From: Oceanicola sp. 22II-s10i
GTDB taxonomy: Bacteria; Pseudomonadota; Alphaproteobacteria; Rhodobacterales; Rhodobacteraceae
Reading direction: 5' to 3'
DNA length: 64,000 bases
Assembly (NCBI RefSeq): GCF_002210105.1
Contig: NZ_AQQU01000008.1
Coordinates: 62,001-126,000 of the forward strand
Shown piece by piece: positions 23,501-39,982 of the stretch. The notes below the pieces were generated by a model that worked only from the letters and a program-made list of their open reading frames with translations, was not told the origin of the DNA and made no database searches. How positions within the stretch are numbered: the first letter of the stretch is position 1; every line of letters starts with the position of its first letter. The position numbers and the translations under genes were made by a program.

Positions 23501-24569
23501 TCAGGTGAACGCGGGCGCGCCCGCGCTGGAAGAGGCGCGGCGGCAGCTCGAGATCTGCAACGCCTGCCGCTATTGCGAGGGATACTGCGCGGTATTCCCG
23601 GCGATGACCCGGCAGAAGGCCTTCGCGGACGGCGACCTGACGCAGCTCGCCAACCTCTGCCACAACTGCCGGGGCTGCTATTACGCCTGCCAGTATACGG
23701 AGCCGCATGAGTTCGCCCTGAACCTGCCGGCGGCGCTGGCGGATGTGCGGGTGGAAAGCTGGGAGCGTTACGCATGGCCCACCGGGCTGGCGCCGATGTT
23801 CCAACGTAACGGGCTGGCCATCGCGATGGCGGTGATCGCGGGCTTCGCCCTGCTGTTCGCGGCCGTCGCGGCGCTGCCGGGGGGCGGCGAGGGGTTCTAT
23901 GCCTACCTGTCGCACGGGGCTATGGTGGCGATCTTCCTGCCCGCGTTCGTCTTTCCAATGGTGGCGATCGGGATCGCCCTGCGCCGCTACTGGGCGGATG
24001 TGGGCGGCAAGGCGCTGCGGGCGTCGGACGTCACCGGGGCGCTGCATGATGCCGGGCGGATGAAGAACCTCGACGGCGGGCAGGGGCAGGGCTGCAACTT
24101 CGAGGACGGTGACCGGTTCTCGAACGCGCGGCGGATCGCGCACCAGCTGATCCTCTACGGGTTCCTGCTGTGCTTTGCCTCGACCTCGGTCGCGACGCTG
24201 ATGCATTACCTGATGGGGTGGGAAGCGCCCTATGGCTTCTGGACGCCGCCCAAGATGCTTGGCGTGCCAGGGGGGATCCTGCTGGTCGCCGGTGTGCTGT
24301 GGATGGCGTCGCTCAAGGTGAAGGCGGACCACGACCTTGGGGCCAAGAACGTCGCGGGTGGCGAGATCTGGTTCTACATCGTGCTGCTGGTGGTCGCGGC
24401 TTCGGGGCTGCTGCTCTACGCGCTCGGCGGGACCGGGGCAGTGGCGGTGATGCTGCCGCTGCACCTCGGGTCGGTGCTGACCTTCTTCCTGCTGATGCCC
24501 TATTCCAAGATGGTGCACGGCTTCTTCCGCCTCGCCGCGCTGATGCGGGACCGGCAGGACAAGGGCTAG
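23490..24569 (+). CDS. tcuB: TcuB: Fe-S and heme membrane electron carrier for tricarballylate oxidation
   Basis: 359 residues. Two Cys clusters near the N-terminus (CNACRYCEGYC and CHNCRGCYYACQY) bind iron-sulfur clusters. At least five hydrophobic segments follow, with His residues (RIAHQLILYGF, LMHYLMGW, MLPLHLGSV) able to hold heme b, ending in KMVHGFFRL. TcuB reoxidises TcuA and passes electrons to quinone. No tcuC transporter gene is adjacent. It ends 2 nt from the convergent soxT1 stop. Confidence 0.88.
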   Translation: MSLDQVNAGAPALEEARRQLEICNACRYCEGYCAVFPAMTRQKAFADGDLTQLANLCHNCRGCYYACQYTEPHEFALNLPAALADVRVESWERYAWPTGLAPMFQRNGLAIAMAVIAGFALLFAAVAALPGGGEGFYAYLSHGAMVAIFLPAFVFPMVAIGIALRRYWADVGGKALRASDVTGALHDAGRMKNLDGGQGQGCNFEDGDRFSNARRIAHQLILYGFLLCFASTSVATLMHYLMGWEAPYGFWTPPKMLGVPGGILLVAGVLWMASLKVKADHDLGAKNVAGGEIWFYIVLLVVAASGLLLYALGGTGAVAVMLPLHLGSVLTFFLLMPYSKMVHGFFRLAALMRDRQDKG

Positions 24570-24571
24570 GC

Positions 24572-25630
24572 CTACTCCGCCGGGGCGAAGCCGGTGATCA
24601 GCTGGCGCAGGCCGATGGCCGCGCCGGCGAGGATCGCGGCGAAGGTCACGGGTGCGGAGAAGGCCAGCAGCGAGAAGGCCGAGATGCCTTGCCCCACGGA
24701 ACAGCCGACGGCTAGGATCGCGCCGGGGCCCATGATCGCCGCGCCGAGGATCTGGCGGCCGAGTTCGCGCGGATCCTCGCAGGCTTCCCAGCGGAAATGC
24801 CCCTTGGAGTAGGAGCCGAGGACCGCGCCGATCAGCACGCCGAAGACCGAGCCCGCCGAGAACGACAGCGCGGTGCCCGAGGCCGTCATCATGTATATGA
24901 TCGTGTCCCCGATGGGCGCGGCAAAGGTGTGGGTCTGGACCGGTTCGGCGTCGAACCCATTGGCGGCGACCCATTGCGTGCCGACCCAGCCCGACACGAC
25001 GGCGAGCCCGACCACGAGGCCCCAGACGATATGCGAGGGCGAGGCGAGCATCCGGCGCGACGACAGGCCGAGCGCGATCAGCGCCGCGCCGATGACCGCG
25101 CCGGTCAGCAGCGGCGGGATGCCGAGGTGCAGGGCCGCCAGTTGCGAGAAGCCCTGCGGGCGCTCTGCGCCGGTTTCGACCGGGAACAGCCAGACGCGGG
25201 TCTGGGCGAGGGGGCCGGACATGACCACGTATGCCGAGATGCCCATGACGAGGACGATGAAGAACGACCGCAGGTCGCCGCCGCCGAGCCGCGCCAGTGC
25301 GCCGTAGCCGCAGTTGCCCGACAGCGCCATGCCGTAGCCGAACATGAGGCCGCCGATGATCGAGCCGAGCGGATTCCAGACCTGATCGAGATAGGCGGTC
25401 TGTCCGAAATCCAGCAGGCCGAGCGCCGCCGCCCCGTGCGCGCCGATGATCGCGGCACCGATGGCCAGCGCCCACATCCGCATCCGTCGGTCGTCCGAGG
25501 AATAGAGCCAGTCCTCGATCGCGCCGAGGGTGCAGAAGCGCCCGATCCGGGCGGCGAGGCCCAGAACGATGCCGCCCGCAAGCCCGATGAGGGCGACGGC
25601 ATTCGCGTCACTCATGTAATCCAGCAGCAT
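24572..25630 (-). CDS. soxT: YeeE/YedE-family sulfur-compound transporter (SoxT1)
   Basis: A 352-residue, roughly ten-helix membrane protein. Conserved Cys residues lie in GRFCTLGAIEDW, LSGNCGYGALARLGGGDLR and VGCSVGQGISAFS, the two-repeat pattern of YeeE/YedE thiosulfate importers. It is the last gene of the minus-strand soxR-side operon, 44 nt after soxR. In other alphaproteobacteria SoxT proteins affect sox induction and thiosulfate handling. A second paralog closes the cluster at 38921-39982. Start ATG 25630 follows AAAGGG; an ATG 15 nt later is also possible. Confidence 0.87.
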   Translation of the reverse strand: MLLDYMSDANAVALIGLAGGIVLGLAARIGRFCTLGAIEDWLYSSDDRRMRMWALAIGAAIIGAHGAAALGLLDFGQTAYLDQVWNPLGSIIGGLMFGYGMALSGNCGYGALARLGGGDLRSFFIVLVMGISAYVVMSGPLAQTRVWLFPVETGAERPQGFSQLAALHLGIPPLLTGAVIGAALIALGLSSRRMLASPSHIVWGLVVGLAVVSGWVGTQWVAANGFDAEPVQTHTFAAPIGDTIIYMMTASGTALSFSAGSVFGVLIGAVLGSYSKGHFRWEACEDPRELGRQILGAAIMGPGAILAVGCSVGQGISAFSLLAFSAPVTFAAILAGAAIGLRQLITGFAPAE

Positions 25631-25674
25631 TGACGGCCCTTTCGTGTCCCGGCGCGCGCCGGCGACGGCGGGCG

Positions 25675-26061
25675 TCAGTCCTCCCGACAGAAGAGGTCGT
25701 AGACAACTTCCATGATCTTGCGGGGCCGGTCGTCCGTCAAGCTGTAGTAGATGGTCTTGCCATCACGGCGCGGTGTGACGAGCCCTTCGAGCCGGAGGCG
25801 CGACAGCTGCTGCGACACGGCGGCCTGCCGGGCCGAGAGCAGATCCTCGAGTTCGGTCACCGATTTCTCGCCGGTGGCGAGGTGGCACAGGATCATCATC
25901 CGGCCTTCGTGCGAGATCGCCTTGAGGAAGTTCGACGCGGTGGTGGCGTTCCGCAGCATGCGGTCCATATCCTCGGCGCAGGTGTTTTCGTCGAAGACGG
26001 GAAGCGAGGTGCCGCGGTCCTCGGTGTCGTATTGATCTTCGGAATTCTGCTGCAAGGTCAT
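25675..26061 (-). CDS. soxR: SoxR, ArsR-family persulfide-responsive repressor
   Basis: A 128-residue winged-helix repressor: FLKAISHEGRMMILCHLATGEKSVTELEDLLSARQAAVSQQLSRLRLEGLVTPRRDGKTIYYSL covers the DNA-binding fold in order. Cys28 (ENTCAED), Cys59 and Cys125 (DLFCRED) are present; the outer pair matches the two cysteines that form a polysulfide link in SqrR/BigR. It is expected to release the sox promoters when sulfane sulfur appears. Matching ATTC-N8-GAAT-like sites lie at the soxS/soxV and soxW/soxX gaps. ATG 26061 is preferred over a TTG at 26088 that would overlap soxS. Confidence 0.92.
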   Translation of the reverse strand: MTLQQNSEDQYDTEDRGTSLPVFDENTCAEDMDRMLRNATTASNFLKAISHEGRMMILCHLATGEKSVTELEDLLSARQAAVSQQLSRLRLEGLVTPRRDGKTIYYSLTDDRPRKIMEVVYDLFCRED

Positions 26062-26065
26062 ACGT

Positions 26066-26437
26066 CTAGCCAGCCTTCTTGTAATCAATCTGCGCCCGGT
26101 CCAGCATCATGCCGAGCAAGCCCCAAAAGAAATCCTCACCGGGATACCCTTCCATGCGGTCGATTTCCACCCCGTCGCGGACCAGCACGAAGGTCGGGGT
26201 AAAGGCAATCTTGCGCGCCAGCGTAACGCCGTCGGGCGTGCCCTCGGTCTTGTCGAAGCGTTCCAGCGGGGCGGCTTCGCCCTCTGGCGTCTTGGGGTAG
26301 ATCGCGGAGACCTCCCGGTCCCAGCGTTCGCACCACGCGCAGCCCGGCTGCTCGGCCATGAGCAGGCGGGTCTCGGCGAGGCCGAGTGCGGGGGCGAGCG
26401 ACAGGAACCCTGCCGCGAGAATTGTCATCAGTCGCAT
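26066..26437 (-). CDS. soxS: SoxS periplasmic thioredoxin
   Basis: A 123-residue exported thioredoxin-like protein. Signal peptide MRLMTILAAGFLSLAPALGLAE, then MAEQPGCAWCERWDRE with the CAWC redox pair, and the cis-Pro region IAFTPTFVLVRDG. In Paracoccus SoxS keeps SoxY active by thiol-disulfide exchange. It overlaps nothing, but its stop is 4 nt before the soxR start. ATG 26437 places the signal peptide properly; the longer frame would prepend a hydrophilic, Cys-containing stretch. Confidence 0.9.
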   Translation of the reverse strand: MRLMTILAAGFLSLAPALGLAETRLLMAEQPGCAWCERWDREVSAIYPKTPEGEAAPLERFDKTEGTPDGVTLARKIAFTPTFVLVRDGVEIDRMEGYPGEDFFWGLLGMMLDRAQIDYKKAG

Positions 26438-26449
26438 GTCGATGTCCGA

Positions 26450-26497
26450 TTGACGGGACCAGCAGGGCAAACATAATCTTATATTTGAATTTCTCAA
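26450..26497. promoter_or_regulatory. Divergent soxS/soxV promoters with a SoxR operator-like site
   Basis: Towards soxV: -35 TTGACG (26450-26455), 16 nt, -10 CATAAT (26472-26477). Towards soxS: -35 TTGAGA (26497-26492), 16 nt, -10 TATGTT (26475-26470). The shared core AATC-TTATATTT-GAAT (26475-26490) differs by one base from the ATTC-N8-GAAT motif of SqrR-type repressors and covers both -10 areas. One bound dimer could shut both promoters. Confidence 0.65.
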
Positions 26498-26515
26498 CCG
26501 GGTTCAGGCTGCGGC

Positions 26516-27256
26516 ATGTTCGACGTATCGTTTTTCGGCGCTCTTGTTGCAGGTCTGCTGTCTTTTCTATCACCCTGCATCCTGCCGATCGTCCCGTTCT
26601 ACCTGAGCTATCTCGCCGGCGCGGGCGTTCACCAGATCGCGGCGGGGGGCGAAGCACCGCCGGGCGTGCGCCGCCGGGCGGTAATCGCGGCGATCATGTT
26701 CGCGCTCGGGGTCATCACGGTCTTCATGGGGCTGGGGGCGACGGCGACGGTCTTCGGCCAGATGGTGCGGGAATATTTCGACGTCCTCAGATGGGTGGCG
26801 GCGGCGATTATCATCGCCATGGGGCTGCATTTCCTCGGGGTGATCCGCATCGGCATCCTTTACCGCCAGTTCCGCGCGGATGCGGGCGACACCAAGGATG
26901 TCAGCCTGCTTGGGGCCTTCGTCATCGGGCTCGCCTTCGCCTTTGGCTGGACGCCCTGCGTGGGGCCGGTGCTGGCGGCGATCCTGTTCACCGCCGCCGG
27001 GGCCGAGACGGCGACGCGCGGTGCGATGCTGCTCTTCGTCTACGGGGTGGGGATGACCGCGCCCTTCGTGATCGCGGCGCTTTTCATCGGGCCGTTCATG
27101 CGCTGGATGGCGGGGTTCCGGAAACATCTGGGCACAGTGGAAAAGGCCATGGGCGTGCTGTTGATCCTGTTCGGCGTCCTGATCGCGACCAATACCGTGA
27201 ACATCATCGCCCAATGGATGCTGGACACCATCCCGTGGTTCAGCTCCGTCGGGTAA
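26516..27256 (+). CDS. soxV: SoxV, CcdA-type membrane reductant carrier
   Basis: A 246-residue CcdA/DsbD-like protein with six membrane helices. The two transport cysteines are in FLSPCILPIVPFYLSYLAG and GWTPCVGPVLAA, each next to Pro. It moves electrons from cytoplasmic thioredoxin to periplasmic SoxW/SoxS. The soxW gene follows after 14 nt. The ATG at 26516 has no strong ribosome site (GGCTGCGGC upstream). Confidence 0.93.
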   Translation: MFDVSFFGALVAGLLSFLSPCILPIVPFYLSYLAGAGVHQIAAGGEAPPGVRRRAVIAAIMFALGVITVFMGLGATATVFGQMVREYFDVLRWVAAAIIIAMGLHFLGVIRIGILYRQFRADAGDTKDVSLLGAFVIGLAFAFGWTPCVGPVLAAILFTAAGAETATRGAMLLFVYGVGMTAPFVIAALFIGPFMRWMAGFRKHLGTVEKAMGVLLILFGVLIATNTVNIIAQWMLDTIPWFSSVG

Positions 27257-27270
27257 GTGGAGGAGAAATC

Positions 27271-27828
27271 ATGCGAAAACTTCTGATCCTGCTGGCGACG
27301 CTGCTGACCGCAGGCCATGTCGCGGCGGCCGAGATGGGCGACGACGGGCTGCACAAGGCAGCCTGGATGCACGACACGTTCAAGGACCTGCGCGACGATC
27401 TGGCCGAGGCCAATGCAGAGGGCAAGCGGCTGATGATCCTGATCGAACAGCGCGGCTGCATCTACTGCCGCAAGATGCACGAGGAGGTCTATCCGACCCC
27501 CAAGATCGACGCACTGCTGAACGAGCGATTCTTCGTCATCCAGATGAACATGTTCGGCGACACCGAGGTGACGGATTTCGACGGCGAGTCGCTGTCCGAG
27601 AAGGACGCCGTCAGCAAGTGGGGCGCGATCTTTACGCCCACCATGATCTTCCTGCCCGAGGAGGTGCCCGAAGGTGTCTCGGCAGCCAAGGCGGCGGTGG
27701 TCACGATGCCCGGCGCGTTCGAGAAAGGAACGACCTATAACCTGCTGAACTGGGTGCTGGAAAAAGGCTATGCCGGTGACGAGCCGTTCCAGAAATACCA
27801 TGCCCGGAACCTCGGCAGCTGGAAGTGA
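27271..27828 (+). CDS. soxW: SoxW periplasmic thioredoxin
   Basis: A 185-residue exported thioredoxin. Signal MRKLLILLATLLTAGHVAAAE, redox motif QRGCIYCRKMHEE, and cis-Pro in IFTPTMIFLP. SoxW is reduced by SoxV and in turn helps keep SoxYZ in the active thiol state. GGAGGAG precedes the ATG. It ends 148 nt before soxX, with an operator between them. Confidence 0.92.
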   Translation: MRKLLILLATLLTAGHVAAAEMGDDGLHKAAWMHDTFKDLRDDLAEANAEGKRLMILIEQRGCIYCRKMHEEVYPTPKIDALLNERFFVIQMNMFGDTEVTDFDGESLSEKDAVSKWGAIFTPTMIFLPEEVPEGVSAAKAAVVTMPGAFEKGTTYNLLNWVLEKGYAGDEPFQKYHARNLGSWK

Positions 27829-27976: not shown

Positions 27977-28447
27977 ATGAGGCTTACAGCAACAGCACTG
28001 GCCGCCACGCTGGTCGCAGGTGTCGCCATCGCGGCGCCGGTCGCGCCGGACGACGTGGCATATGACGGCGGCGCCATCGAGGCATCGCTGACCGGCACGG
28101 CGGGCGATCCCGAAAACGGCAAGGCCATCATGACCAACCGGGCCAAGGGCAACTGCGTCGCCTGCCACGAGGTCACGGCGCTGAGCGCGGCGCCGTTCCA
28201 CGGCACCGTCGGCCCGACGCTGGATTCGGTCGGCGATACCTGGTCCGAGGCGGAACTGCGCGGGATCGTGGCCAATGCCAAGATGACCTTCGACGGGACG
28301 GTGATGCCGCCCTTCTACAAGGTCAGCGGCTTCACCCGTCCGGGCGACGGCTATACCGGCAAGGCCGCACCGGCCGATCTGGCGCCGATCCTGACGGCGC
28401 AGGAAATCGAGGATGTGGTCGCCTTCCTCAAGACCCTCAAGGAATGA
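27977..28447 (+). CDS. soxX: SoxX monoheme cytochrome c
   Basis: 156 residues. Signal peptide with an AIAA-PVAP junction, heme site CVACH (60-64), and a distal Met candidate in FDGTVMPPFYKV (Met110). Pairs with SoxA to attach thiosulfate oxidatively to the SoxY swinging arm. GGGGAGGAAAC precedes the ATG. It is first of the soxXYZA group and overlaps the next frame's earliest start by an ATGA. Confidence 0.93.
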   Translation: MRLTATALAATLVAGVAIAAPVAPDDVAYDGGAIEASLTGTAGDPENGKAIMTNRAKGNCVACHEVTALSAAPFHGTVGPTLDSVGDTWSEAELRGIVANAKMTFDGTVMPPFYKVSGFTRPGDGYTGKAAPADLAPILTAQEIEDVVAFLKTLKE

Positions 28448-28467
28448 GCGACAGAGATAGGAGACAT

Positions 28468-28890
28468 ATGACGATGAGCTTCACACGACGCGATACACTG
28501 GCGCTTGGCGCCGGCGCCGCGCTGATGACGTTCCTGCCGTTCCGCGTCAACGCGGCGGCCGAGGACGCGATCGCGGCCTTCACCGGCGGCGCCGCCGTGA
28601 CGGATGGCGGGGTCGACCTGACCGCGCCCGAAATCGCCGAAAACGGCAACACCGTTCCGATCGAGGTCGGCGCCGAGGGCGCGGCCGCCATCCTGCTGCT
28701 GGCGACCGGCAACCCGACACCGGGCGTCGCCACCTTCACCTTCGGTCCGCTCGCCGGCGCGTCGCGCGCGGCGACGCGCATCCGCCTTGCGGGCACCCAG
28801 GACGTCGTGGCGATTGCCAAGATGGCCGACGGTTCGTTCGCGCGTGCGTCGAAGACCGTCAAAGTCACCATCGGCGGCTGCGGCGGCTGA
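28468..28890 (+). CDS. soxY: SoxY sulfur-carrier subunit
   Basis: 140 residues with a twin-arginine-type signal (FTRRDTLALGAGAALMTF) and the hallmark C-terminal swinging arm ending GGCGG. The penultimate-region Cys carries sulfur intermediates between SoxXA, SoxB and SoxCD. The Ig-like body contains VPIEVGAEG and FTFGPLAGASRAATRIRLA. GGAG lies upstream of the ATGs at 28468 and 28474; an ATG at 28444 overlapping soxX is less likely. Confidence 0.94.
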   Translation: MTMSFTRRDTLALGAGAALMTFLPFRVNAAAEDAIAAFTGGAAVTDGGVDLTAPEIAENGNTVPIEVGAEGAAAILLLATGNPTPGVATFTFGPLAGASRAATRIRLAGTQDVVAIAKMADGSFARASKTVKVTIGGCGG

Positions 28891-28908
28891 GCGTAGGAGA
28901 ACCGGATC

Positions 28909-29238
28909 ATGGCAAACGATGCAAAACCCCGCGTGAAGGTGCCGAAGTCGGCATCCGCCGGCGAGGTCATCACGATCAAGTCGCTGATCAACCACCAGAT
29001 GGAAAGCGGTCAGCGCAAGGGCAGCGACGGGAACCTCATTCCGCGCTCGATCATCAACCGCTTCACCTGTGACTTCAACGGTCAGAACGTGGTGGACGTG
29101 AAGATGGAGCCCGCGATCTCGACCAACCCGTATTTCGAATTCGACGCCAAGGTCGATGCCTCGGGCGAGTTCAAGTTCACCTGGTACGACGACGACGGCT
29201 CTGTCTACGAAGACGTCAAGCCGATCACCGTCGGCTAA
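28909..29238 (+). CDS. soxZ: SoxZ, partner of SoxY
   Basis: A 109-residue Ig-fold protein with no signal peptide; it is exported as a complex with SoxY through the Tat route. IKSLINHQMESGQRKG and FTCDFNGQNVVDVKMEPAISTNPYFEF match SoxZ across the length. It follows soxY after 18 nt with GTAGGAGAA before the ATG. Confidence 0.94.
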   Translation: MANDAKPRVKVPKSASAGEVITIKSLINHQMESGQRKGSDGNLIPRSIINRFTCDFNGQNVVDVKMEPAISTNPYFEFDAKVDASGEFKFTWYDDDGSVYEDVKPITVG

Positions 29239-29245
29239 GGGCTTG

Positions 29246-29273
29246 CCCTGTCCCGCGGGGCCGCGGGGCAGGG
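29246..29273 (+). terminator. Intercistronic hairpin between soxZ and soxA
   Basis: A 13-bp stem, CCCTGTCCCGCGG with CCGCGGGGCAGGG (one U-G pair), closed by a 2-nt loop. No U-tract follows, and soxA begins 21 nt later. It is more likely an mRNA processing or stability element that sets the soxYZ:soxA ratio than a true terminator. Confidence 0.55.
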
Positions 29274-29293
29274 TCCATCAGGGGAGGAACACC

Positions 29294-30145
29294 ATGAAAT
29301 TCAAGGCATTGTCCGTTGCCGCGCTGGCCCTTGCGACCACCGCGACCCTGACATGGGCCGAAGCCGACGACGACCAGCTGGTCATCAACGGCGATCTCGA
29401 GATCACCACCAAGGCCGCCGCGCCCGCGCATCTGGACGGCGCGCTGGACGAGGTCATTTCCGGCTGGCATTTCCGGGACGACGAGACCCAGGCGATGGAG
29501 CAGGACGACTTCGACAACCCCGGCATGATCTTCGTCGACAAGGCGCGCGATCAGTGGGCGATGGTCGAAGGGTCCGAGGGCAAATCCTGCGCGTCCTGCC
29601 ACAACGACCCGGAAAGCATGGCGGGCGTGAAGCCGACCTATCCCAAGTGGAACGAGGCGGCGGGCGAGGTGCGGACGATCCAGATGCAGGTCAACGCCTG
29701 CCGGACCGAACGGATGGGCGCCGAGCCGCTGAAGCTCGACTCGGACGACGCGCTGAACATGGAGGCGCTGATCGCCTCGGTGTCGCGCGGAATGCCGATG
29801 AACGTGGCGATCGACGGCCCGGCCCAGGAAACATGGGCGAAGGGCAAGGAGATCTACTACACCCGTTTCGGCCAGCTGGAACTGTCCTGCGCCAACTGCC
29901 ACGAGCAGAACTACGGCAACTACATCCGCTCGGACCACCTGAGCCAGGGTCAGATCCAGGCGTTTCCGGCCTACCGTCTGAAGGACGCCAAGCTGGTCGG
30001 CGTGCAGGGCCGCTTCCGTGGCTGCGTGCGCGACACCCGTGGCGAGACCTTCGCGGCGGGCAGCCCGGAGTTCATCGCACTGGAGCTCTACGTCGCCTCG
30101 CGCGGCAACGGCCTGTCGGTCGAGGGCCCTTCGGTCCGCAACTAA
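29294..30145 (+). CDS. soxA: SoxA diheme cytochrome c, L-cysteine S-thiosulfotransferase subunit
   Basis: 283 residues with a signal peptide ending near LTWA-EAD. Heme sites are CASCH (99-103) and CANCH (199-203), so this is the two-heme type known from Rhodovulum and Paracoccus. Cys244 in RFRGCVRDTRG is the ligand of the active-site heme that becomes the persulfide. Works with SoxX to conjugate thiosulfate to SoxY. GGGGAGGAAC precedes the ATG. Confidence 0.94.
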   Translation: MKFKALSVAALALATTATLTWAEADDDQLVINGDLEITTKAAAPAHLDGALDEVISGWHFRDDETQAMEQDDFDNPGMIFVDKARDQWAMVEGSEGKSCASCHNDPESMAGVKPTYPKWNEAAGEVRTIQMQVNACRTERMGAEPLKLDSDDALNMEALIASVSRGMPMNVAIDGPAQETWAKGKEIYYTRFGQLELSCANCHEQNYGNYIRSDHLSQGQIQAFPAYRLKDAKLVGVQGRFRGCVRDTRGETFAAGSPEFIALELYVASRGNGLSVEGPSVRN

Positions 30146-30150
30146 CCCGG

Positions 30151-30185
30151 AACCCCGCGCGGGCCTGACCTCGCGCGGGGTTTCT
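30151..30185 (+). terminator. Terminator-like hairpin between soxA and soxB
   Basis: Perfect 11-bp stem AACCCCGCGCG / CGCGCGGGGTT with a 10-nt loop, then TTCTCGCTC. It starts 6 nt after soxA, splitting the sox operon into a promoter-proximal XYZA part and a distal B-onwards part. Confidence 0.75.
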
Positions 30186-30200
30186 CGCTCTTAAAGCATT

Positions 30201-30218
30201 CACACATGCGCATGTGTG
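30201..30218. promoter_or_regulatory. Perfect 18-bp palindrome upstream of soxB
   Basis: CACACATGCGCATGTGTG is fully self-complementary, with ATTC just before and GAATTC just after. It lies between the soxA terminator and the soxB start, where a second sox promoter would be expected. It differs from the ATTC-N8-GAAT sites, so a different regulator may bind. Confidence 0.55.
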
Positions 30219-30239
30219 TCGAATTCAGGAACCAGTGAC

Positions 30240-31937
30240 ATGATCTCGAGACGCGATTTCCTGCAGGTGTCGATGGCCGCCTCGGCCATGCTCGGCGCTT
30301 CGGGCTTCGGCAAATGGGCGCGGCTGGCCGCGCAGCAGACGCTGACGCAGGACCAGCTCCTGCAGTTCGACACGTTCGGGAACGTCTCGCTGATCCACGT
30401 CACGGACATCCACGCCCAGCTCAAGCCGATCTACTTCCGCGAACCCTCGGTCAACATCGGCGTGGGCGAGAACAAGGGCGCGGTGCCGCACATCACCGGC
30501 GCGGACTTCCGCAAGTTCTACGGGGTGGAGGACGGCAGCGCCTATCACTACGCCCTGTCCTCCGGCGATTTCGAGGCGCTGGCCAAGGGCTATGGCCGGG
30601 TCGGCGGCCTCGACCGTGTGGCGACCGTCATCAACGCGATCCGGGCCGAACGGCCGGATGCGCTGCTGCTGGACGGCGGCGATACCTGGCACGGGTCCTA
30701 CACCTGCTATCAGACCGAAGGCCAGGACATGGTCAACGTGATGAACGCGCTCAGGCCCGACGCGATGACCTTCCACTGGGAATTCACGCTTGGCTCCGCG
30801 CGGGTCGAGGAGCTGGTCGGCGGGCTGCCCTTCGCGGCGCTTGGCCAGAACATCTTCGACGCGGAGTGGGACGAGCCGTCGGAGCTGTTCCCGCCCTACA
30901 AGATGTTCGAACGCGGCGGCGTCAAGATCGCGGTGATCGGTCAGGCCTTCCCCTACATGCCGATCGCCAACCCGCGCTGGATGTTCTCGGAATACTCCTT
31001 CGGCATCCGCGACGAGAACATGCAGGAAATGGTGGACGAAGTCCGTGCCGAGGGCGCGGAGCTGGTGGTCTGCCTGTCGCACAACGGTTTCGACGTGGAC
31101 AAGAAGATGGCGTCCAAGGTGACGGGCATCGACGTGATCCTGTCCGGCCACACCCACGACGCGCTGCCCGAGCCGGTTCTTGTGGGCGAGACGATCATCG
31201 TCGCCTCCGGCTCCAACGGGAAATTCGTCAGCCGCGTCGATCTGGACGTGCAGAACGGCCGGATGATGGGCTTCCGCCACAAGCTGATCCCGATCTTTGC
31301 CGACGTGATCGAGCCGGACAAAGAGGTCGCGGCGCTGATCGACGCGGAGCGCGCCCCCTACGCGGATGCACTGAAAGAGGTCGTCGGCCAGACCGACAGC
31401 CTGCTCTACCGGCGCGGCAACTTCAACGGGACGTGGGACGACCTGATCTGCGAGGCCCTGCTGAGCGAGCGCGAGGCCGACATCGCGATGTCCCCCGGCG
31501 TCCGCTGGGGGCCGAGCCTGATCCCCGGCGACGACATCACGCGCGAGGACATCTGGAACGTCACCTCGATGTCCTACGGCGAGGCCTACCGGTCCGAGAT
31601 GACCGGCGAGTTCATCAAGGTGATCCTCGAGGACGTGGCCGACAACATCTTCAACCCCGATCCCTACTACCAGCAGGGCGGCGACATGGTCCGCATCGGG
31701 GGCATGGGCTACCGCATCGACATCACCAAACCGCAGGGCGAGCGCGTCAGCGAGATGACGCTGCTGAAGACGGGCGAAGCCATTGATCCGGCGAAGAATT
31801 ACGTCGTCGCGGGCTGGGCCAGCGTGAACGAGGGCACCGAGGGACCGCAGATCTGGGACGTGGTCGAGGCGCATATCAAGAAGATGGGCACGGTGACGGT
31901 CGCGCCGAACAACAGCGTGACGGTGGTCGGGGCCTGA
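30240..31937 (+). CDS. soxB: SoxB thiosulfohydrolase
   Basis: A 565-residue dimanganese hydrolase that removes sulfate from SoxY-bound S-thiosulfonate. Tat signal ISRRDFLQVSMAAS. Metal motifs are VTDIHAQLKP (Asp56, His58), LDGGDTWHGS, TFHWEFTLG (the SoxB version of GNHE), CLSHNGFDVD and LSGHTHDALPEP. SoxB is the usual marker gene of the pathway. ATG 30240 has AGGA upstream; the in-frame start at 30216 falls in the palindrome. Confidence 0.95.
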   Translation: MISRRDFLQVSMAASAMLGASGFGKWARLAAQQTLTQDQLLQFDTFGNVSLIHVTDIHAQLKPIYFREPSVNIGVGENKGAVPHITGADFRKFYGVEDGSAYHYALSSGDFEALAKGYGRVGGLDRVATVINAIRAERPDALLLDGGDTWHGSYTCYQTEGQDMVNVMNALRPDAMTFHWEFTLGSARVEELVGGLPFAALGQNIFDAEWDEPSELFPPYKMFERGGVKIAVIGQAFPYMPIANPRWMFSEYSFGIRDENMQEMVDEVRAEGAELVVCLSHNGFDVDKKMASKVTGIDVILSGHTHDALPEPVLVGETIIVASGSNGKFVSRVDLDVQNGRMMGFRHKLIPIFADVIEPDKEVAALIDAERAPYADALKEVVGQTDSLLYRRGNFNGTWDDLICEALLSEREADIAMSPGVRWGPSLIPGDDITREDIWNVTSMSYGEAYRSEMTGEFIKVILEDVADNIFNPDPYYQQGGDMVRIGGMGYRIDITKPQGERVSEMTLLKTGEAIDPAKNYVVAGWASVNEGTEGPQIWDVVEAHIKKMGTVTVAPNNSVTVVGA

Positions 31938-31960
31938 ACATCGGAAAGGGAGGAAAACCG

Positions 31961-32398
31961 ATGATGAAGACCGGACTGGGCGCTGCCGCGCTCGCACTGT
32001 GCCTGACGACCGGGGCATGGGCCGAAGGGATGATGCACAAGGTCGCGGTCCACGTGGACCAGAACGACCCGCAGGTGCTGAACATGGCGCTGAACAACGT
32101 CCAGAACCTCGCCAGCTACTACAAGGAGAACGGCGACCAGGCGACAGTCGAAATCGTCGCCTATGGCCCCGGCCTGATGATGTTTGTCGAGGGCAAGAGC
32201 CCGGTGGCGGACCGGATCTCGGCGATGGCGCTGGAGCTGGAGCACGTCACCTTCTCCGCCTGCGAGAACACGCTGGAAAACATGAAGAAAAAGCAGGGCC
32301 AGGATATCGCGCTGCTCGACGAGGCACGGATCGTGCCGTCCGGCGTGGTCCGGCTGATCGAGCTGCAGGAACAGGGCTATGCCTATGTGCGCCCCTGA
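31961..32398 (+). CDS. Secreted DsrE-like protein between soxB and soxC
   Basis: A 145-residue protein with a signal peptide (LGAAALALCLTTGAWA-EGM). The mature part has a DsrE/DsrF-type alpha/beta fold pattern: HKVAVHVDQNDPQVLNMALNNVQNL, VEIVAYGPGLMMFVEG, FSACENTLENMKKK. The only mature Cys is Cys101, at the place where sulfur-relay DsrE-family proteins carry theirs. It is not among the named sox genes of Paracoccus. Position between soxB and soxC (23 nt and 47 nt gaps) suggests a periplasmic sulfur-binding accessory. That role is inferred. Confidence 0.75.
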   Translation: MMKTGLGAAALALCLTTGAWAEGMMHKVAVHVDQNDPQVLNMALNNVQNLASYYKENGDQATVEIVAYGPGLMMFVEGKSPVADRISAMALELEHVTFSACENTLENMKKKQGQDIALLDEARIVPSGVVRLIELQEQGYAYVRP

Positions 32399-32420
32399 CG
32401 GGCGGATGCCCGCACGGGGC
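32391..32420 (+). terminator. Intercistronic hairpin upstream of soxC
   Basis: Two-tier stem: outer GCCCC / GGGGC and inner CGGGC / GCCCG around GGAT. It begins at the end of the DsrE-like gene and has no U-tract. It may tune soxC expression; weak evidence. Confidence 0.35.
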
Positions 32421-32445
32421 AGGTAATACGAAACTGGAGTTGATG

Positions 32446-33726
32446 ATGGACACTGAGAAGAAAGGACAGTCGCGCCGCGCTTTCCTGACCTCGGCCGCCG
32501 CTGTCGGGGCAGGGGCGGTCGCGGCAGGCGCGGTGCGCGCCGCCGGGCCCGACCCGCTGATCACCGAGGTCCAGCCATGGGCCTCGGGCACCGGGCTGGG
32601 TGTGGATGCGACGCCATACGGCATGCCGATCGAGTTTGAATCGGATGTCATCCGGCGCAACGTGCCCTGGCTGACGGCCGATCCGATCAGCTCCATCAAC
32701 TTCACGCCGATCCACGCGCTCGATGGCACGATCACCCCGCAGGGCTGCGCCTTCGAGCGCCACCACTCCGGCGCGATCGAACTGCGCAAGGAAGATTACC
32801 GGCTGATGATCAACGGGCTGGTCGACCAGCCGCTGGTCTTCACCTACGCCGACCTCGAACGCTTCCCGCGCGAGAACCACGTCTACTTCTGCGAATGTGC
32901 GGCCAACACCGGCATGGAATGGGCGGGGGCGCAGCTGAACGGCGCGCAGTTCACGCACGGTATGATCCACAACATGGAATATTCCGGCGTCTCGCTCAGG
33001 ACGCTGCTGAACGAGGCCGGGCTCTCGGCCGCCGGCGACCTCACGGACAAGTGGGTTTATGTCGAAGGCGCCGACGCTTCGTCCAACGGCCGCTCGATCC
33101 CGATGGAAAAAGCGCTCGACGACGTGCTGGTCGCCTTCAAGGCCAATGGCGAGGCGCTCAGGATGGAACATGGCTATCCCGTCCGGCTGGTCGTGCCGGG
33201 CTGGGAAGGCAACATGTGGATCAAGTGGCTGCGCCGGATCGAAGTCACCGCGCAGGCCATCGAGAGCCGCGAGGAGACGTCGAAATACACCGACACCCTG
33301 GCCGACGGCATCTCGCGCAAATGGACATGGGTGATGGATGCGAAATCCGTCATCACCAGCCCCAGCCCGCAGGCGCCGATCACCCATGGCAACGGACCGC
33401 TGGTGATCACCGGTCTGGCGTGGTCGGGCCACGGGCGGATCACGCGCGTCGACGTGTCCAAGGACGGCGGCATCACCTGGGAAACCGCGCGGCTTGGCCG
33501 GACGCAGGGCGACACGAAGGCGCTGACCCGGTTCTACCTCGACACCGAGTGGAACGGCGAGGAGATGCTGCTGCAGTCCCGCGCCATCGACGAGACGGGC
33601 TATGTCCAGCCGACCAAGGCGCAGCTGCGCGAGGTGCGCGGTCTGAACTCCGTCTATCACAACAACTGTATCCAGACCTGGCACGTCACGCCCACCGGGG
33701 AGGCAGAGAATGTCGAAGTCTCTTAA
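32446..33726 (+). CDS. soxC: SoxC molybdoenzyme subunit of sulfur dehydrogenase
   Basis: A 426-residue sulfite-oxidase-family protein with Tat signal [31 protein letters not shown] holds the molybdenum-binding Cys (most likely Cys151, position of the sulfite oxidase ligand). The dimerisation Ig-like domain follows ([20 protein letters not shown]). With SoxD it oxidises the SoxY-bound sulfane sulfur with six electrons. Presence of SoxCD means thiosulfate can go fully to sulfate without sulfur globules. GGAG lies 6 nt before this ATG; an ATG directly before is also possible. Confidence 0.94.
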
Positions 33727-35116
33727 TCTGTTGATGCCCGCCCTCGGCGGCGCGGCGATCGTCCTCGGGGCGGCCTATGGCCTGTCCACGCGCGACTACC
33801 GCGCGCAGGAGGCCGAGATGGCGCAGACCCAGGCCGAAACCGCCACCGCGCGCGCGGCAGCGGCCGAGGAAAAGGCCGGTGCCGCATCGGAGGCGGCCAA
33901 GACCGCCGAGGCCCGGCTGGCCGAGGTCGAGGCCGAGGCGAAATCCGCCGTCGACGCGGCCACGGAAGAGCTCGAGGCGCTGAAGACACGGTTGGCACAG
34001 GCCGAAGAGGCCGCCCGCAACGCGTCTTCCGGCGATGCGCCGGTCAAGGTGGCCGCGGACACCGGTCCTGCCGAAACGCCCGCAGCGCCCGAGGGCGGTT
34101 ACGGGATCGGACGCGCCGCGCTGCCCGAAGAAGTCGCGGCATGGAACATCGACGTCAGCCCGGACGGCACCGGCCTGCCGGTCGGCTCCGGCTCGGTCGA
34201 GGATGGTGAGCGGATCTTCTCGGAAAACTGCGCCGCATGCCACGGCGAGTTTGCCGAAGGGGCGGGCAACTGGCCCAAGCTGGCAGGCGGCGACGGTTCG
34301 CTGGCGGACGAGGACCCGCTCAAGACCGTCGGCAGCTACTGGCCCTACCTCTCCACGACCTTCGATTATGTCCACCGGTCGATGCCCTTCGGCGCGGCGC
34401 AGACGATGTCGGTCGACGACACCTACGCGATCGTCGCCTACATCCTCTATTCCAACTACATCGTCGAAGACGACTTCGTCCTGTCGAACGAGAACTTCCT
34501 CGACGTGGAGATGCCGAACGCCGACGGGTTCATCGTCGATGACCGTCCCGAGACGGAATACGCCAAGTGGCGGGTCGAACCCTGCATGGTGGATTGCAAG
34601 CCCTCGGTCGAGATCACCAAGCGCGCCACCGTGCTGGACGTGACGCCGGAAGAAACCGCCGCCAAGGACGTGGCGGCGGGCGGCGGAGCGTCCTCGCAGG
34701 ACGAGGCAAAGGTCGAACCGGTCAGCGCGGAGACCCCGTCAGCCGAGGCTCCGAAGGCCGAGGAAAGCGCGAAGGCGGAAACGGCCTCCGCCGATCCGGA
34801 ACTGGTCGCGGCCGGTGAAAAGGTCTTTGGCAAGTGCAAGGCCTGCCACGAGGTCGGTGCGGGGGCCAAGAACAAGACCGGGCCCGAGCTGAACGGCGTC
34901 ATCGGGCGGGTCATGGGGTCCATCGACGGCTTCAAGTACTCCAAGGGCTTCCAGCAGGCGCATGACGAGGGCCGGGTCTGGGACGAGGCCGCGATGGCCG
35001 AGTTCATGGCCAATCCCAAGGCCTTCATGAAGGGCACGCGGATGTCCTTTGTCGGGCTCAAGAAGGACGAGGATGTCGCGGCCCTGATCGCCTATCTCTC
35101 GACCATCCCGGAGTGA
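33710..35116 (+). CDS. soxD: SoxD diheme cytochrome c subunit, with N-terminal coiled coil
   Basis: 468 residues, longer than the Paracoccus protein. A hydrophobic anchor or signal ([20 protein letters not shown]) is followed by an Ala/Glu-rich heptad-like coiled coil (about 30-106). First heme CAACH (174-178) lies in the SoxD core, with [10 protein letters not shown] supplying Met candidates. After a Glu/Ala/Pro linker comes a second cytochrome domain with CKACH (376-380) and [11 protein letters not shown]. It overlaps soxC by 17 nt. The coiled coil may act as a spacer holding the complex off the membrane (inference). Confidence 0.92.
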
Positions 35117-35120
35117 GCCG

Positions 35121-35831
35121 GTGCGCGCCCTGATCCGTTCCTCCCTGCTGGTTGGCGCGACCGTCCTCGCGACGGACGCACCGGCCAGCGAATTGGGCGA
35201 CGCGGGGCGGGGCGAAAAGCTGTTCAGCCAGTGCAAGGGCTGTCACCAGATCGGACGGGGCGCCGAGAACCGGATCGGCCCCCACCTCAACACGCTCTTC
35301 GGCCGCAAGGCCGGGGGGCTGGAGGACTTCCGCTACTCCAAGAGCATGGCGCGCGCCGGTGCGGCCGGGCTGGAGTGGCACGCCGAAACGCTGGACGGGT
35401 TCCTCGAGAACCCGCGTTCCATCGCGTCGGGCACGCGGATGAGCTATCGCGGCATGAAGGACGACGGGCAGCGCGCTGATCTCATTGCCTATCTCCGGGT
35501 CCATTCCGACAGTCCGCGCGACATCCCCGAGGCCGATCCGACGGCAAGCGGGACGGATCACGATGTCGATCCGGAAATACTCGCCATCGCCGGCGACCCG
35601 GAATACGGCGAATACCTCTCGTCCGAATGCAAGACCTGCCATCAGTCGGACGGCGGCGATGACGGAATCCCGTCGATCACGCTCTGGCCGGTCGAAGACT
35701 TCGTGGTCGCGATGCATGCCTACAAGGAAAAGAAGCGTCAGAACCCGGTCATGCAGATGATGGCCGGCCGGCTGAGCAACGAGGAGATTGCGGCGCTGGC
35801 CGCGTATTTCGGGGCGCTGGAGGAGGACTAG
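35121..35831 (+). CDS. soxE: SoxE diheme cytochrome c
   Basis: 236 residues. Signal MRALIRSSLLVGATVLATDAPAS, then two cytochrome domains with CKGCH (38-42; Met ligand likely in ASGTRMSYRG) and CKTCH (170-174; PVMQMMAGRLS). The first domain is a class I cytochrome c very like the SoxD C-terminal domain. Together with SoxF it resembles flavocytochrome c sulfide dehydrogenase. GTG start, 4 nt after soxD. Confidence 0.88.
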   Translation: MRALIRSSLLVGATVLATDAPASELGDAGRGEKLFSQCKGCHQIGRGAENRIGPHLNTLFGRKAGGLEDFRYSKSMARAGAAGLEWHAETLDGFLENPRSIASGTRMSYRGMKDDGQRADLIAYLRVHSDSPRDIPEADPTASGTDHDVDPEILAIAGDPEYGEYLSSECKTCHQSDGGDDGIPSITLWPVEDFVVAMHAYKEKKRQNPVMQMMAGRLSNEEIAALAAYFGALEED

Positions 35832-35859
35832 CGCGCCATATTTTCAGGGAGGAGATACT

Positions 35860-37122
35860 ATGGCTTTGAACAGACGGGTCTTTCTGGGAACGACAGCGGC
35901 CCTTGCCGCAACGCTGACCGCGCCCGCGGCGATCGGGCAGGCCCGGCCACGGGTCGTGGTGATCGGTGGCGGTGCAGGCGGGGCGACCGCCGCGCGCTAT
36001 ATCGCCAAGGACAGCAAGGGTGCGGTGGACGTCACGCTGGTCGAACCGACGCGGACCTACTTCACCTGCTTCTTCTCCAACCTCTACCTCGGCGGGTTCC
36101 AGGAACTGGCCGACATCGGCCACACCTACGGGACGCTGGCGGCGGACTACGGCATCAACGTCATCCACGACTGGGCCACCGGGGTGGACCGGGACGCCAA
36201 GACCGTCACGCTCGCGGGCGGGCACACGCTGTCCTATGACAAGCTGATCCTGTCGCCTGGCATCGACTTCGTCGATGGCGCGGTGCCGGGCTGGGACGTG
36301 ACCCAGCAGAATCGGATGCCGCATGCCTACAAGGCCGGGTCGCAGTCCGAACTGCTCAAGGCGCAGCTGATGGCGATGCCCGAGGGCGGGACCTTTGCAA
36401 TGATCGCGCCGCCGAACCCCTATCGCTGCCCGCCGGGACCCTACGAGCGGGTGTCGATGGTGGCGCATCTGCTGAAGCAGAACAATCCGACGGCCAAGAT
36501 CCTCGTGGTCGACCCGAAGGAGAAGTTCTCGAAACAGGCGCTGTTCGAGGAAGGCTGGGCCAAGCATTACGGCGGCATGATCGAACGCATCGGCCCGGAT
36601 TTCGGCGGCGGCAACGTCAAGGTCGATGCGCAGGCGATGACCGTCGATATCGACGGCTCGGTCGAGACGGTGGATGTCTGCAACGTCATCCCGGCGATGA
36701 AGGCGGGCCGGATCGCCGAGATCGCGGGCGTGACCGAGGGCAACTGGGCGCCGGTGAACGCGGCGGACATGTCGACCAAGGCGGACCCGGATGTCTACGT
36801 GCTGGGCGATGCGGCGGCGCAGGGCGACATGCCGAAGTCCGGCTTCTCGGCCAACAGCCAGGCCAAGGTCTGCGCCAACGCCGTGCGGGGCGCGCTGACC
36901 GGGTCCAAGGTGTTCCCGGCCAAGTTCTCCAACACCTGCTGGTCGCTGATTGCGCCCGAGGATGGCGTAAAGGTCGGCGCGACCTACGAGGCGACGCCGG
37001 AGAAGATCGCCTCGACCGAAAGCTTCGTGAGCCAGACGGGCGAGGATGCGGACACCCGCGCGGCGACCTACCGGGAATCGCTGGGCTGGTATCAGGGCAT
37101 CACCGCGGACATGTTCGGCTGA
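35860..37122 (+). CDS. soxF: SoxF, flavocytochrome c sulfide dehydrogenase flavoprotein subunit
   Basis: 420 residues with a Tat signal (NRRVFLGTTAALAATL). FAD site VVVIGGGAGGATAARYIA. The redox-active Cys pair matches FccB: Cys190 (NPYRCPPGPYERV) and Cys360 (SNTCWSLIAPEDG). VYVLGDAAAQGDMPKSGFSANSQ is the second FAD motif. Oxidises sulfide or sulfane sulfur and passes electrons to SoxE. GGGAGGAG precedes the ATG; soxE ends 28 nt upstream. Confidence 0.93.
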   Translation: MALNRRVFLGTTAALAATLTAPAAIGQARPRVVVIGGGAGGATAARYIAKDSKGAVDVTLVEPTRTYFTCFFSNLYLGGFQELADIGHTYGTLAADYGINVIHDWATGVDRDAKTVTLAGGHTLSYDKLILSPGIDFVDGAVPGWDVTQQNRMPHAYKAGSQSELLKAQLMAMPEGGTFAMIAPPNPYRCPPGPYERVSMVAHLLKQNNPTAKILVVDPKEKFSKQALFEEGWAKHYGGMIERIGPDFGGGNVKVDAQAMTVDIDGSVETVDVCNVIPAMKAGRIAEIAGVTEGNWAPVNAADMSTKADPDVYVLGDAAAQGDMPKSGFSANSQAKVCANAVRGALTGSKVFPAKFSNTCWSLIAPEDGVKVGATYEATPEKIASTESFVSQTGEDADTRAATYRESLGWYQGITADMFG

Positions 37123-37210: not shown

Positions 37211-37636
37211 ATGCGACACCTGTCTCTTGCTCTGATCCTCGCACTGCCCCTGCCGGCAGTTGCGGAAGAAATCGTGGCCGTGCCTTTCGAGGGCAGCTAC
37301 GACGATGCCGCTTTCGCGGTCGAGAATGCCATCGTCGGACGCGGGCTGGTCGTGGACCACGTCAGCCACGTCGGCGAGATGCTGAACCGCACGGCGGCGG
37401 ATGTGGGCGCGACGAAGCAGATCTTCACCGACGCGCAGGTGTTCCAGTTCTGCTCGGCCGTGGTGTCGCGGCAGGTGATGGAGGCCGATCCGCTGAACGT
37501 CGGCTACTGTCCTTACGGAATTTTCGTATTCGAGAACGAAGACGGTGTGAAAATCGGTTACCGAACCTATCCGGACGGGCCGATGGACGTGGTCGAGGAC
37601 CTGCTGAAAGACATCGTCGAAGAAGCCGGAGGCTGA
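37211..37636 (+). CDS. Exported DUF302 protein
   Basis: A 141-residue protein with a signal peptide ([19 protein letters not shown]). The body is DUF302-like: [53 protein letters not shown]. Two Cys (FCSA, GYCPYG) are conserved-looking and could bind metal or heme. DUF302 proteins often accompany sulfur or redox gene clusters, but function is unknown. AAAGGAGA precedes the ATG. It sits 88 nt after soxF and 7 nt before hemA. Confidence 0.8.
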
Positions 37637-37643
37637 CTTTTCA

Positions 37644-38867
37644 ATGGATTACAACGCATACTTCGCATCCGAGCTGACGCGGCTGAAGGACGAGGGCAAT
37701 TACCGGGTCTTCGCGGATCTGGAACGGCACCGGGGCCAGTATCCCGCTGCGACATGGCGCGGCGACGGCGGTGAGCGTGACGTCACCATCTGGTGCTCGA
37801 ACGACTATCTCGGCATGGGCCAGCACCCGGTGGTGATCGAGGCGATGCACGGCGCGCTCGACAGCTACGGCGCGGGCGCTGGCGGGACGCGGAACATCTC
37901 GGGCACCACCCATGCGCATGTGCTGCTGGAACGTGAACTCGCGGGCCTGCACGGGAAAGAAGACGCGCTGCTCTTCACCTCGGGCTACGTGTCGAACTGG
38001 GCCGCGCTCGGGACACTGGCGTCGAAGGTGCCCGGCATGGTGGTGCTGTCGGACGCGCTGAACCATGCCTCGATGATCGAGGGCATCCGCCATTCGCGGG
38101 CGAAATGCGTGGTCTGGAAACACAACGATCTCAGTGACCTGGAGGCGAAACTTCAAGCGCTTCCCGTGGACGCGCCCAAGATGATCGCCTTTGAATCGGT
38201 TTACTCGATGGACGGCGACATCGCCCCGATCCGCGAGATCTGCGATCTGGCGGAGCGCTACGGCGCGATGACCTATCTGGACGAGGTGCATGCGGTTGGT
38301 CTCTACGGCCCGCGCGGCGGCGGCGTCGCCGAGCGCGAGGGGCTGATGGACCGGCTGACTGTGATCGAGGGCACGCTCGGCAAGGCGTTCGGCGTGGTCG
38401 GCGGCTATATCGCCGCCAGCCGCGAACTCTGCGATTTCGTGCGCTCCTTCGCCAGCGGTTTCATCTTCACCACCGCTCTGCCGCCGGCCGTGGCCGCCGG
38501 AGCGGCCGCCTCGATCCGGCACCTAAAAACCAGCAGCGCCGAGCGTGAGCGTCAGCAGCAGGTGGTGGCCGAGGTTCGGGCGCGGCTCGATGCCATCGGG
38601 ATCCCGCATTTGCCGAACCCCAGCCACATCATCCCGGTGATGGTCGGCGATCCGGTGAAGTGCAAGTTCATCTCGGACATGCTGCTGCGCGACTACGGCA
38701 TCTACATCCAGCCGATCAACTATCCGACCGTGCCCAAGGGAACGGAACGGCTGCGGATCACCCCGTCGCCAGTCCATTCGCCCGAGGATGTGAACCGTCT
38801 GATCGGCGCGCTTTCGGACCTGTGGCGGCAGTGCGAACTGGCCCGCCGTCCGATGGCGGCGCAGTAG
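37644..38867 (+). CDS. hemA: 5-Aminolevulinate synthase
   Basis: Condenses glycine and succinyl-CoA to 5-aminolevulinate, first step of heme synthesis in alphaproteobacteria. 407 residues, normal length. [53 protein letters not shown], and the PLP-binding Lys247 in [13 protein letters not shown]. It lies inside the sox island, so heme supply can rise with the many Sox cytochromes. Whether it is the only hemA of the genome is unknown. Confidence 0.95.
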
Positions 38868-38920: not shown

Positions 38921-39982
38921 ATGGAATGGCTCATCGAAACCCTTGGCGATCCCGGCGCGCTCGGCCTCGCCGGCGCGCTTGTCGGCCTGCTGTTCGGCGC
39001 GGCGGCCCAGCAGTCGCGCTTCTGCCTGCGCGCCTCGACGGTCGAGGTGGCCGAGGGCCATCCCGGCCCGCGCCTCGCCGTCTGGCTGCTCGCCTTCTTC
39101 ACTGCGGTGTCCAGCGTCCAGCTGGCTATCCATTTCGGTATTCTCGACCTCTCCGGCGCGCGGGTTCTGGCTGCCACCGGCTCGATGAGCGGGGCGGTGA
39201 TCGGCGGGCTGATGTTCGGCACCGGCATGATCCTCGCCCGCGGCTGCGCCTCGCGCCTGCTGGTGCTGGCCTCGTCCGGCAATCTCCGCGCGCTGGTCTC
39301 GGGCCTTGTCGTGACGCTGGTCGCGCAGTCGGCCTACAAGGGCGTCCTCAGCCCCGCGCGCGAGGCGATCTCGGCGCTCTGGACCATCCCCGGCGGCGGC
39401 GAACGGAGCCTTGCCGCCATGCTGGGCCTCTCGCCGCTTGCGGTCGGGGCGATCGCGCTGTTCTGCCTAGGCGGGGCTGTCGTCTATGCCATGCGCAACC
39501 GCGTTCCGGTATGGCACATGGCGACCGGGGCGCTGGTCGGGCTGGCCGTGGCGCTCGGATGGTGGGCGACCTTCGCGATCTCGCAGGTCTCGTTCGAGGT
39601 GGTGCCGATCTCCTCCGTCACATTCACCGGGCCCTCGACCGACACCTTGATGGTGCTGGTAACGCAGCCGCGCGTGACGCTGAGCTTCGGTATCGGCCTC
39701 GTGCCGGGCGTGGCCGTCGGGGCAGGGTTGGCGGCCCTGCTGACGCGGGAATGGCGGCTGGAACGGTTTGGGGCCGACACGCCGATGGAGCGCTACCTGG
39801 TCGGTGCGGCCCTGATGGGGTTCGGCGCGATGCTGGCGGGCGGCTGCGCGGTCGGCGCGGGTGTGTCAGGCGGCGCGGCGATGTCGGTGACGGCCTGGAC
39901 GGCGGTGTTCTGCATGTGGGTCGGCGCGATGGTGACGCAACGTGTCCTGACGCTCCGCATGGGGCAGAGCGTCAGCGCCTGA
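38921..39982 (+). CDS. soxT: YeeE/YedE-family sulfur-compound transporter (SoxT2)
   Basis: A 353-residue multi-helix membrane protein, paralog of the one at 24572-25630. Conserved Cys positions: QQSRFCLRASTVE, LARGCASRLLVLASSGNLR and AGGCAVGAGVSGGAAMS. Together with SoxT1 it brackets the sox cluster. The two differ enough that one may import thiosulfate or sulfite and the other take part in signalling, as suggested for SoxT in other bacteria. It is 53 nt after hemA. Confidence 0.87.
   Translation: MEWLIETLGDPGALGLAGALVGLLFGAAAQQSRFCLRASTVEVAEGHPGPRLAVWLLAFFTAVSSVQLAIHFGILDLSGARVLAATGSMSGAVIGGLMFGTGMILARGCASRLLVLASSGNLRALVSGLVVTLVAQSAYKGVLSPAREAISALWTIPGGGERSLAAMLGLSPLAVGAIALFCLGGAVVYAMRNRVPVWHMATGALVGLAVALGWWATFAISQVSFEVVPISSVTFTGPSTDTLMVLVTQPRVTLSFGIGLVPGVAVGAGLAALLTREWRLERFGADTPMERYLVGAALMGFGAMLAGGCAVGAGVSGGAAMSVTAWTAVFCMWVGAMVTQRVLTLRMGQSVSA

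Follow-up and report, generated by a model that had tools for sequence, protein, structure and literature searches.

DsrE of DsrEFH and the DsrE2 and DsrE3 sulfurtransferases are cytoplasmic, working with TusA or DsrC. The available passages of PMC13047784 and PMC11582611 back this cytoplasmic setting in part, and in the accessible portion of PMC4175335 DsrE3A forms a Cys-S-thiosulfonate and hands thiosulfate to TusA. Two archaeal DsrE/F-like proteins of solved structure, MTH1491 (1l1s) and ST0148 (2pd2), have alignments that begin at chain residues 2-4, with no leader seen. For the sox side, SoxS, SoxW and SoxV are thioredoxin-type or CcdA-type proteins of a fold other than DsrE. SoxS binds SoxY (PMC11582611, passages available), and SoxYZ that lacks its sulfane works only after a lag, the active carrier bearing a sulfane atom (PMC5336275, likewise from passages available). 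How the sulfane sulfur of SoxYZ arrives in the cytoplasm is given as 'by unknown means' in an excerpt of PMC11582611, where DsbA-like or SoxS proteins are proposed to present it to SoxT. A DsrE-type gene within a sox cluster is already in print: Sulfitobacter noctilucicola and S. undariae (the latter L022 in our survey) carry an 'orf2, DsrE family protein' in the gap from soxB to soxC, its function listed as unknown, and the passage concerned (PMC11034169, in excerpt) gives neither function nor localisation. Within the passages available, PMC10090131, PMC10708946 and PMC13047784 do not mention a protein of this type, and the open-access literature, with subscription journals largely outside it, yielded no report on its function and no wider survey; the wider tie to SoxB described below is what we add.

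The window, the whole 64,000-nucleotide stretch of DNA analysed, carries such a gene in the same position as the Sulfitobacter orf2; we call it gene X and its product protein X (both distinct from soxX). The cluster reads soxR-S-V-W-X-Y-Z-A-B-[gene X]-C-D-E-F (Table 1), the sox names other than those of B, C, Y and Z being presumed from position. The annotation of Ruegeria sp. SCSIO 43209 has this gene order too, soxX-soxY-soxZ-soxA included, but without gene X. The gap from the soxB stop to the gene X start is 23 bp, with a purine-rich stretch before the start, and that from its end to soxC is 44 bp; the original prediction of a DsrE-like reading frame fitted closely between these neighbours is borne out, its flanks being true SoxB and SoxC. 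In a consensus scan, 30100-33800 showed no promoter-like site, and the gap from soxB to soxC no plus-strand terminator-like one. Two YeeE/SoxT-like transporter genes, on opposite strands, bracket the cluster. Homologs of the metallo-beta-lactamase-fold protein beyond the second of these recur close to sox clusters.

Table 1. Features of the window, with positions in the window, strands and the basis of each assignment.
Feature	Position	Strand	Basis
Control gene, presumably of tricarballylate-utilisation type	23490..24569		tentative name
YeeE/SoxT-like transporter and ArsR-type regulator (SoxR)	24572..26061	-	Sulf_transp PF04143; order as annotated in Ruegeria
First YeeE/SoxT-like transporter gene	24572..25630	-	
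soxS (-), soxV/CcdA-like (+), soxW (+)	26066..27828	mixed	position; CcdA and thioredoxin-family genes likewise ordered in Ruegeria
soxX, soxY, soxZ, soxA	27977..30145	+	SoxY TIGR04488, SoxZ TIGR04490; X and A by position
soxB	30216..31937	+	TIGR04486, 840 bits
Gene X, DsrE-like protein, 145 aa, probably secreted	31961..32398	+	ATG start; fold and family searches
Putative Sec signal peptide of protein X, residues 1-21, cleavage after AWA	31961..32023	+	by eye
Cys101 codon of gene X	32261..32263	+	only cysteine of mature protein; motif F-x-A-C-x-N-T
soxC	32443..33726	+	TIGR04555, 574 bits
soxD-type cytochrome c gene	33710..35116	+	position; c-type cytochrome annotated there in Ruegeria; homologs in sox loci
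soxE-like cytochrome and soxF-like flavoprotein	35121..37122	+	position; Ruegeria annotation of a c-type cytochrome and an FAD oxidoreductase
DUF302 protein	37211..37636	+	PF03625; recurrent neighbour of sox and DsrE-like genes
Gene between DUF302 gene and second transporter	37644..38867		place of annotated 5-aminolevulinate synthase (hemA) in Ruegeria sp. SCSIO 43209
Second YeeE/SoxT-like transporter	38921..39982	+	PF04143
Metallo-beta-lactamase-fold protein	39986..40897	-	top NCBIfam match AidB-type lactonase, far under cut-off

Gene X is real and a confident member of the DsrE family with a conserved single cysteine. Its product scores 26.4 bits against Pfam DsrE (PF02635; cut-off 22.7), while an NCBIfam search returned no significant family; the nearest solved structure is MTH1491 (phmmer E = 1.9e-9, profile E = 3.3e-24). 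The AlphaFold2 model, whose pLDDT averages 92.3 and, from residue 31 onward, stands at 96-98 block by block, has the predicted alpha/beta fold of DsrE: Foldseek places 1l1s first, with a TM of 0.90 by target length, followed by ST0148, a designed cage protein, two DsrE-like proteins and chain C of DsrEFH (E = 6e-3). With MTH1491 and ST0148, protein X has in common the fold, the domain length, a like C-terminal end and the cysteine, Cys101 aligning with the cysteine of both (C-x-N-T in MTH1491); in the model it ends the strand 96-101, ahead of helix 102-112. Across 118 aligned sequences (homologs from the fetched loci, the window's protein among them) Cys101 is kept in 117, Asn49, Thr104 and Gly128 are invariant, and in 113 the mature part holds a single cysteine. 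In a Puniceispirillum homolog (L061:5968-6408) Ser takes the place of Cys101. Since the gene has 105 coding relatives in many genomes, with Cys101 this widely kept, a chance reading frame is ruled out. In its own genome it is the sole match, whether the search is made with the protein itself or with a wide profile, A2.

Protein X is probably exported to the periplasm. Its N-terminus resembles a Sec signal peptide, with a cleavage site, judged by eye, after MMKTGLGAAALALCLTTGAWA and before E; a low-confidence helix of the model (residues 6-18) falls within this putative peptide, and a hydrophobic N-terminus is found in 112 of the 118 aligned sequences, by a crude hydropathy threshold and hand-chosen starts. 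The only cysteine besides Cys101, Cys14, lies in this peptide, and there is no CXXC. A lipoprotein was considered and dropped, because Cys14 (in LALC) has Leu at -1 and so, by eye, no lipobox. With DsrE of DsrEFH and with DsrE2 and DsrE3 the protein has a fold class and, presumably, a reactive cysteine in common, but it differs from them in carrying a putative signal peptide and in accompanying Sox. Membership in DsrEFH was considered and dropped; the signal peptide read by eye does not agree with the cytoplasmic location of that complex. The predicted fold, export signal and single conserved mature cysteine of the original prediction have in this way all stood up, the second of them as a reading of sequence.

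To follow where gene X lies, single genomes of 84,980 species were scanned first, which gave 105 coding relatives, with 80 of the 105 loci obtained, each holding at most 6 kb per side, so that farther linkage is invisible there. Ten of these loci contain soxB: eight have the order soxB-X-soxC, one (L025) has soxB-X and then a contig end, and in one (L081) X and soxB are neighbours on opposite strands. In two more (L010, L033) the side of a sox cluster that holds soxT and soxR lies downstream of X, and L070 has soxS-like and soxW-like genes near it; the remaining loci show, within their 6 kb or less on each side, none of these sox genes besides stray matches. When 49 genomes of the 70 soxB-less loci were searched, SoxC was matched in 40; in three of these the identity is as low as 43-46%, and the matches may be other sulfite dehydrogenases.

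In a survey of 199 genomes of the window's own family, nearly all of distinct genera, X and soxC lie within 20 kb of each other in 13 of the 61 genomes that have both, where a rough estimate gives about 0.6 by chance; in the other 48 they do not, although contig breaks may hide some cases. The order soxB-X-soxC is found in 6 of 126 SoxC-bearing genomes (the window and L082-L086); X follows soxD, ahead of the DUF302 gene, in three (L087-L089), lies past the DUF302 gene in two (L090, on the other strand, and L091), and is on the soxT/soxR side in two (L092, L093). Further loci have X after soxD (L094-L096, L133), directly 3' of soxB (L098, L128, L129, L131, L134-L137; in L098 and L128 with a soxT-like gene after it), or in the order soxZ-X-soxA (L130). 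Outside the family but within the class, X and SoxB occur together in 16 genomes, and in 10 of these X is at most 9 kb from soxB or soxC (G248, G269, G282, G287, G318, G350, G386, G399, G407, G479); G479 is known from a 31-residue match only, and the hits of G318, G350, G269 and G287 reach no more than 26-31% identity. Among the genomes of the phylum survey, soxB is followed by X after 67-119 bp in G663, in G623 and in five genomes of one genus (g391: G512, G581, G614, G636, G645), and G668 has the order soxY-soxZ-X-soxA-soxX-soxB.

Plasmids and doubled genes add to this variety. The plasmid pOB3b1 of Methylosinus trichosporium OB3b carries soxZ, soxB, two 'DsrE family protein' genes and a DUF302 gene, and in an unannotated region of Indioceanicola profundi that was searched by profile, two X-like genes lie no more than about 6 kb from soxB. 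Two DsrE-like genes per sox region were seen in three records (L140:4950-5831, L142:14575-15794, L054:6001-10125); those of L140 are of differing kinds, with C-A-N-S and C-A-I-T motifs, and a heteromer is possible. Acidithiobacillus caldus SM-1 likewise carries, on its small plasmid pLAtc2, a DsrE-family gene matching the profile of the X group (L139:4845-5345), and in one further plasmid region soxB is annotated without other sox genes. The DUF302 gene recurs both by sox clusters and by X (soxD-DsrE-DUF302 and soxB-DsrE-DsrE-DUF302; L087-L091, L140), and its product may be a partner protein.

The tie to Sox is also apparent from co-occurrence. Among 241 genomes of the Alphaproteobacteria (191 genera), X is found in 22, of 16 families, and SoxB in 23; both occur together in 18, of 13 families, so that SoxB is present in 18/22 genomes with X against 5/219 without (p = 3.7e-19, from a Fisher test that, like all those given here, ignores ancestry). 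Eight of the 22 X matches have E above 1e-10; with matches at 1e-10 or better only, the counts are 10/14 against 13/227 (p = 6e-9, ancestry again ignored). For SoxC they are 12/22 against 13/219 (p = 3.2e-8), with 9 of the 25 matches at 47% or less and possibly other sulfite dehydrogenases, and 11/22 against 5/219 for matches of 55% or more (p = 8e-10), both regardless of ancestry. X accompanies SoxB more often than SoxC: a SoxC match is absent in 6 of the 18 genomes with X and SoxB (G248, G304, G399, G407, G413, G479). In the family survey, where 67 genomes (about a third) match X, SoxC is present in 61/67 with it and 65/132 without (p = 1.4e-9, on the same ancestry-blind footing). A SoxC match at 37% (G071) was counted as negative; G062 has a broken copy of X and G106 a copy with an internal stop. 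In the phylum survey (219 genomes of Pseudomonadota, searched with profile A2 at an E of 1e-6) SoxB is present in 22/36 genomes with X against 10/183 (p = 1.3e-13, blind to ancestry), where the profile includes rows from class-survey genomes, three of them (G269, G301, G403) and the window itself recurring in the phylum set, where the five soxB-adjacent genomes of g391 are one genus and seven SoxB-less genomes with X another (g394), and where one SoxB match (G662) is weak (39%). An unrelated gene of the window as patchy as X (the control gene of Table 1; 20/241 class genomes) coincides with SoxB in 5/20 against 18/221 (p = 0.03, ancestry ignored) and overlaps X in 4 genomes (p = 0.09); some background co-occurrence thus exists, far weaker than that of X with SoxB.

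By co-occurrence and repeated linkage, X is a Sox-associated accessory gene, as the real tie to Sox in the original prediction implied, and not a core one present in all complete Sox systems. In the sox region of Paracoccus pantotrophus DSM 11072, which is unannotated and was searched by profile, 68 bp separate the SoxB match from that of SoxC, and the 19.7 kb around soxB contain no match to a profile of X, in keeping with the placement of X outside the Paracoccus gene set; because this region and 65 of the 126 SoxC-bearing family genomes lack X, Sox works without it, and X is dispensable for Sox. The specific action between SoxB and SoxCD that had been proposed is not supported: the slot is rare, the other positions are many, and with SoxB lacking a SoxC match in a third of the class genomes that have X and SoxB (6/18), a role tied to SoxCD was rejected. 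Carriers also exist in which no SoxB match was found (4/22 in the class and 14/36 in the phylum survey); therefore some members must do something else. The single Azospirillum plasmid region examined has no sox gene among the annotated neighbours of X.

Because protein X is probably exported, of DsrE type, endowed with one conserved cysteine and tied to SoxB with or without SoxC, it is best read as an accessory sulfur carrier of Sox that exchanges sulfur with SoxYZ, a reading to which we give a probability of roughly 0.5. Transfer by Cys101 may be its role: this residue would accept sulfane sulfur as a persulfide or S-thiosulfonate and would exchange it with the carrier cysteine of SoxY. The presence of X without SoxC fits a role at SoxYZ. 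Two directions can be envisaged: X would either load onto SoxYZ the sulfane atom required for its activation (priming), with which the lag of underivatised SoxYZ agrees (PMC5336275, in the passages available), or take sulfane off SoxYZ and pass it on, for example to SoxT for import or into SoxR signalling, and a presenter to SoxT fits the import described in the available text of PMC11582611. As chemical precedent we rate best the passing of thiosulfate from DsrE3A to TusA (PMC4175335, in excerpt).

Two other readings are each improbable, though worth weighing. Like SoxS, SoxV and SoxW, X is an accessory partner in sox clusters; it neighbours soxV and soxW in two loci (L105, L106) and lies about 0.65 kb from soxS in a third (L101), so that it could, together with these proteins, maintain the thiols of SoxYZ, SoxB or other Sox proteins as a holdase or thiol protector, handling no pathway sulfur; its one cysteine without a CXXC is, however, unlike a thiol-disulfide oxidoreductase, and its fold is of DsrE type. 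Equally improbable is a role in general sulfur homeostasis, with X as a scavenger or sensor of sulfane sulfur or polysulfide in the periplasm and its enrichment in thiosulfate oxidisers following from the large amounts they make: X is not near sox in most family genomes, adjoins methionyl-tRNA synthetase (metG), aldo/keto reductase, lepA or a ThiF-like gene in several of the 80 loci, and occurs in some genomes without SoxB, but its repeated adjacency to soxB across families exceeds what a general role needs. In a tree of 106 rows, with few columns, long branches and poor resolution, the window's protein groups with homologs that have no sox genes alongside (Tropicimonas, Thalassovita, Lutimaribacter); the label soxB-X-soxC changes 8 times on the best tree, which suggests repeated entry into this slot, and a one-clade constraint is not rejected (p-AU 0.164), while of the rows after soxD L087, L088, L089 and L094 form one well-supported branch, with L095 and L096 far off. 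A chance insertion into this operon with no Sox role would agree with that grouping and with the rarity of the slot, but is very unlikely, since X co-occurs and is linked with sox genes in further families and at further sites, and since there are 13 close pairs where about 0.6 would be expected by the rough estimate.

The accessory carrier exchanging sulfur with SoxYZ can be carried further, more tentatively, to protein X as the periplasmic sulfurtransferase still missing from many Sox systems, loading the priming sulfane or unloading it towards SoxT; Sox would then use a relay of two carriers instead of SoxYZ by itself, and some species would add a second DsrE-like subunit. X is a candidate for what turns underivatised SoxYZ into its active sulfane form (PMC5336275, passages available) and for what presents the sulfur bound to SoxYZ to the importer SoxT (PMC11582611, likewise). 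If true, this would place DsrE-type sulfur transfer outside the cytoplasm, by way of a gene present in about a third of the sampled genomes of the family (67/199) and in other Pseudomonadota.
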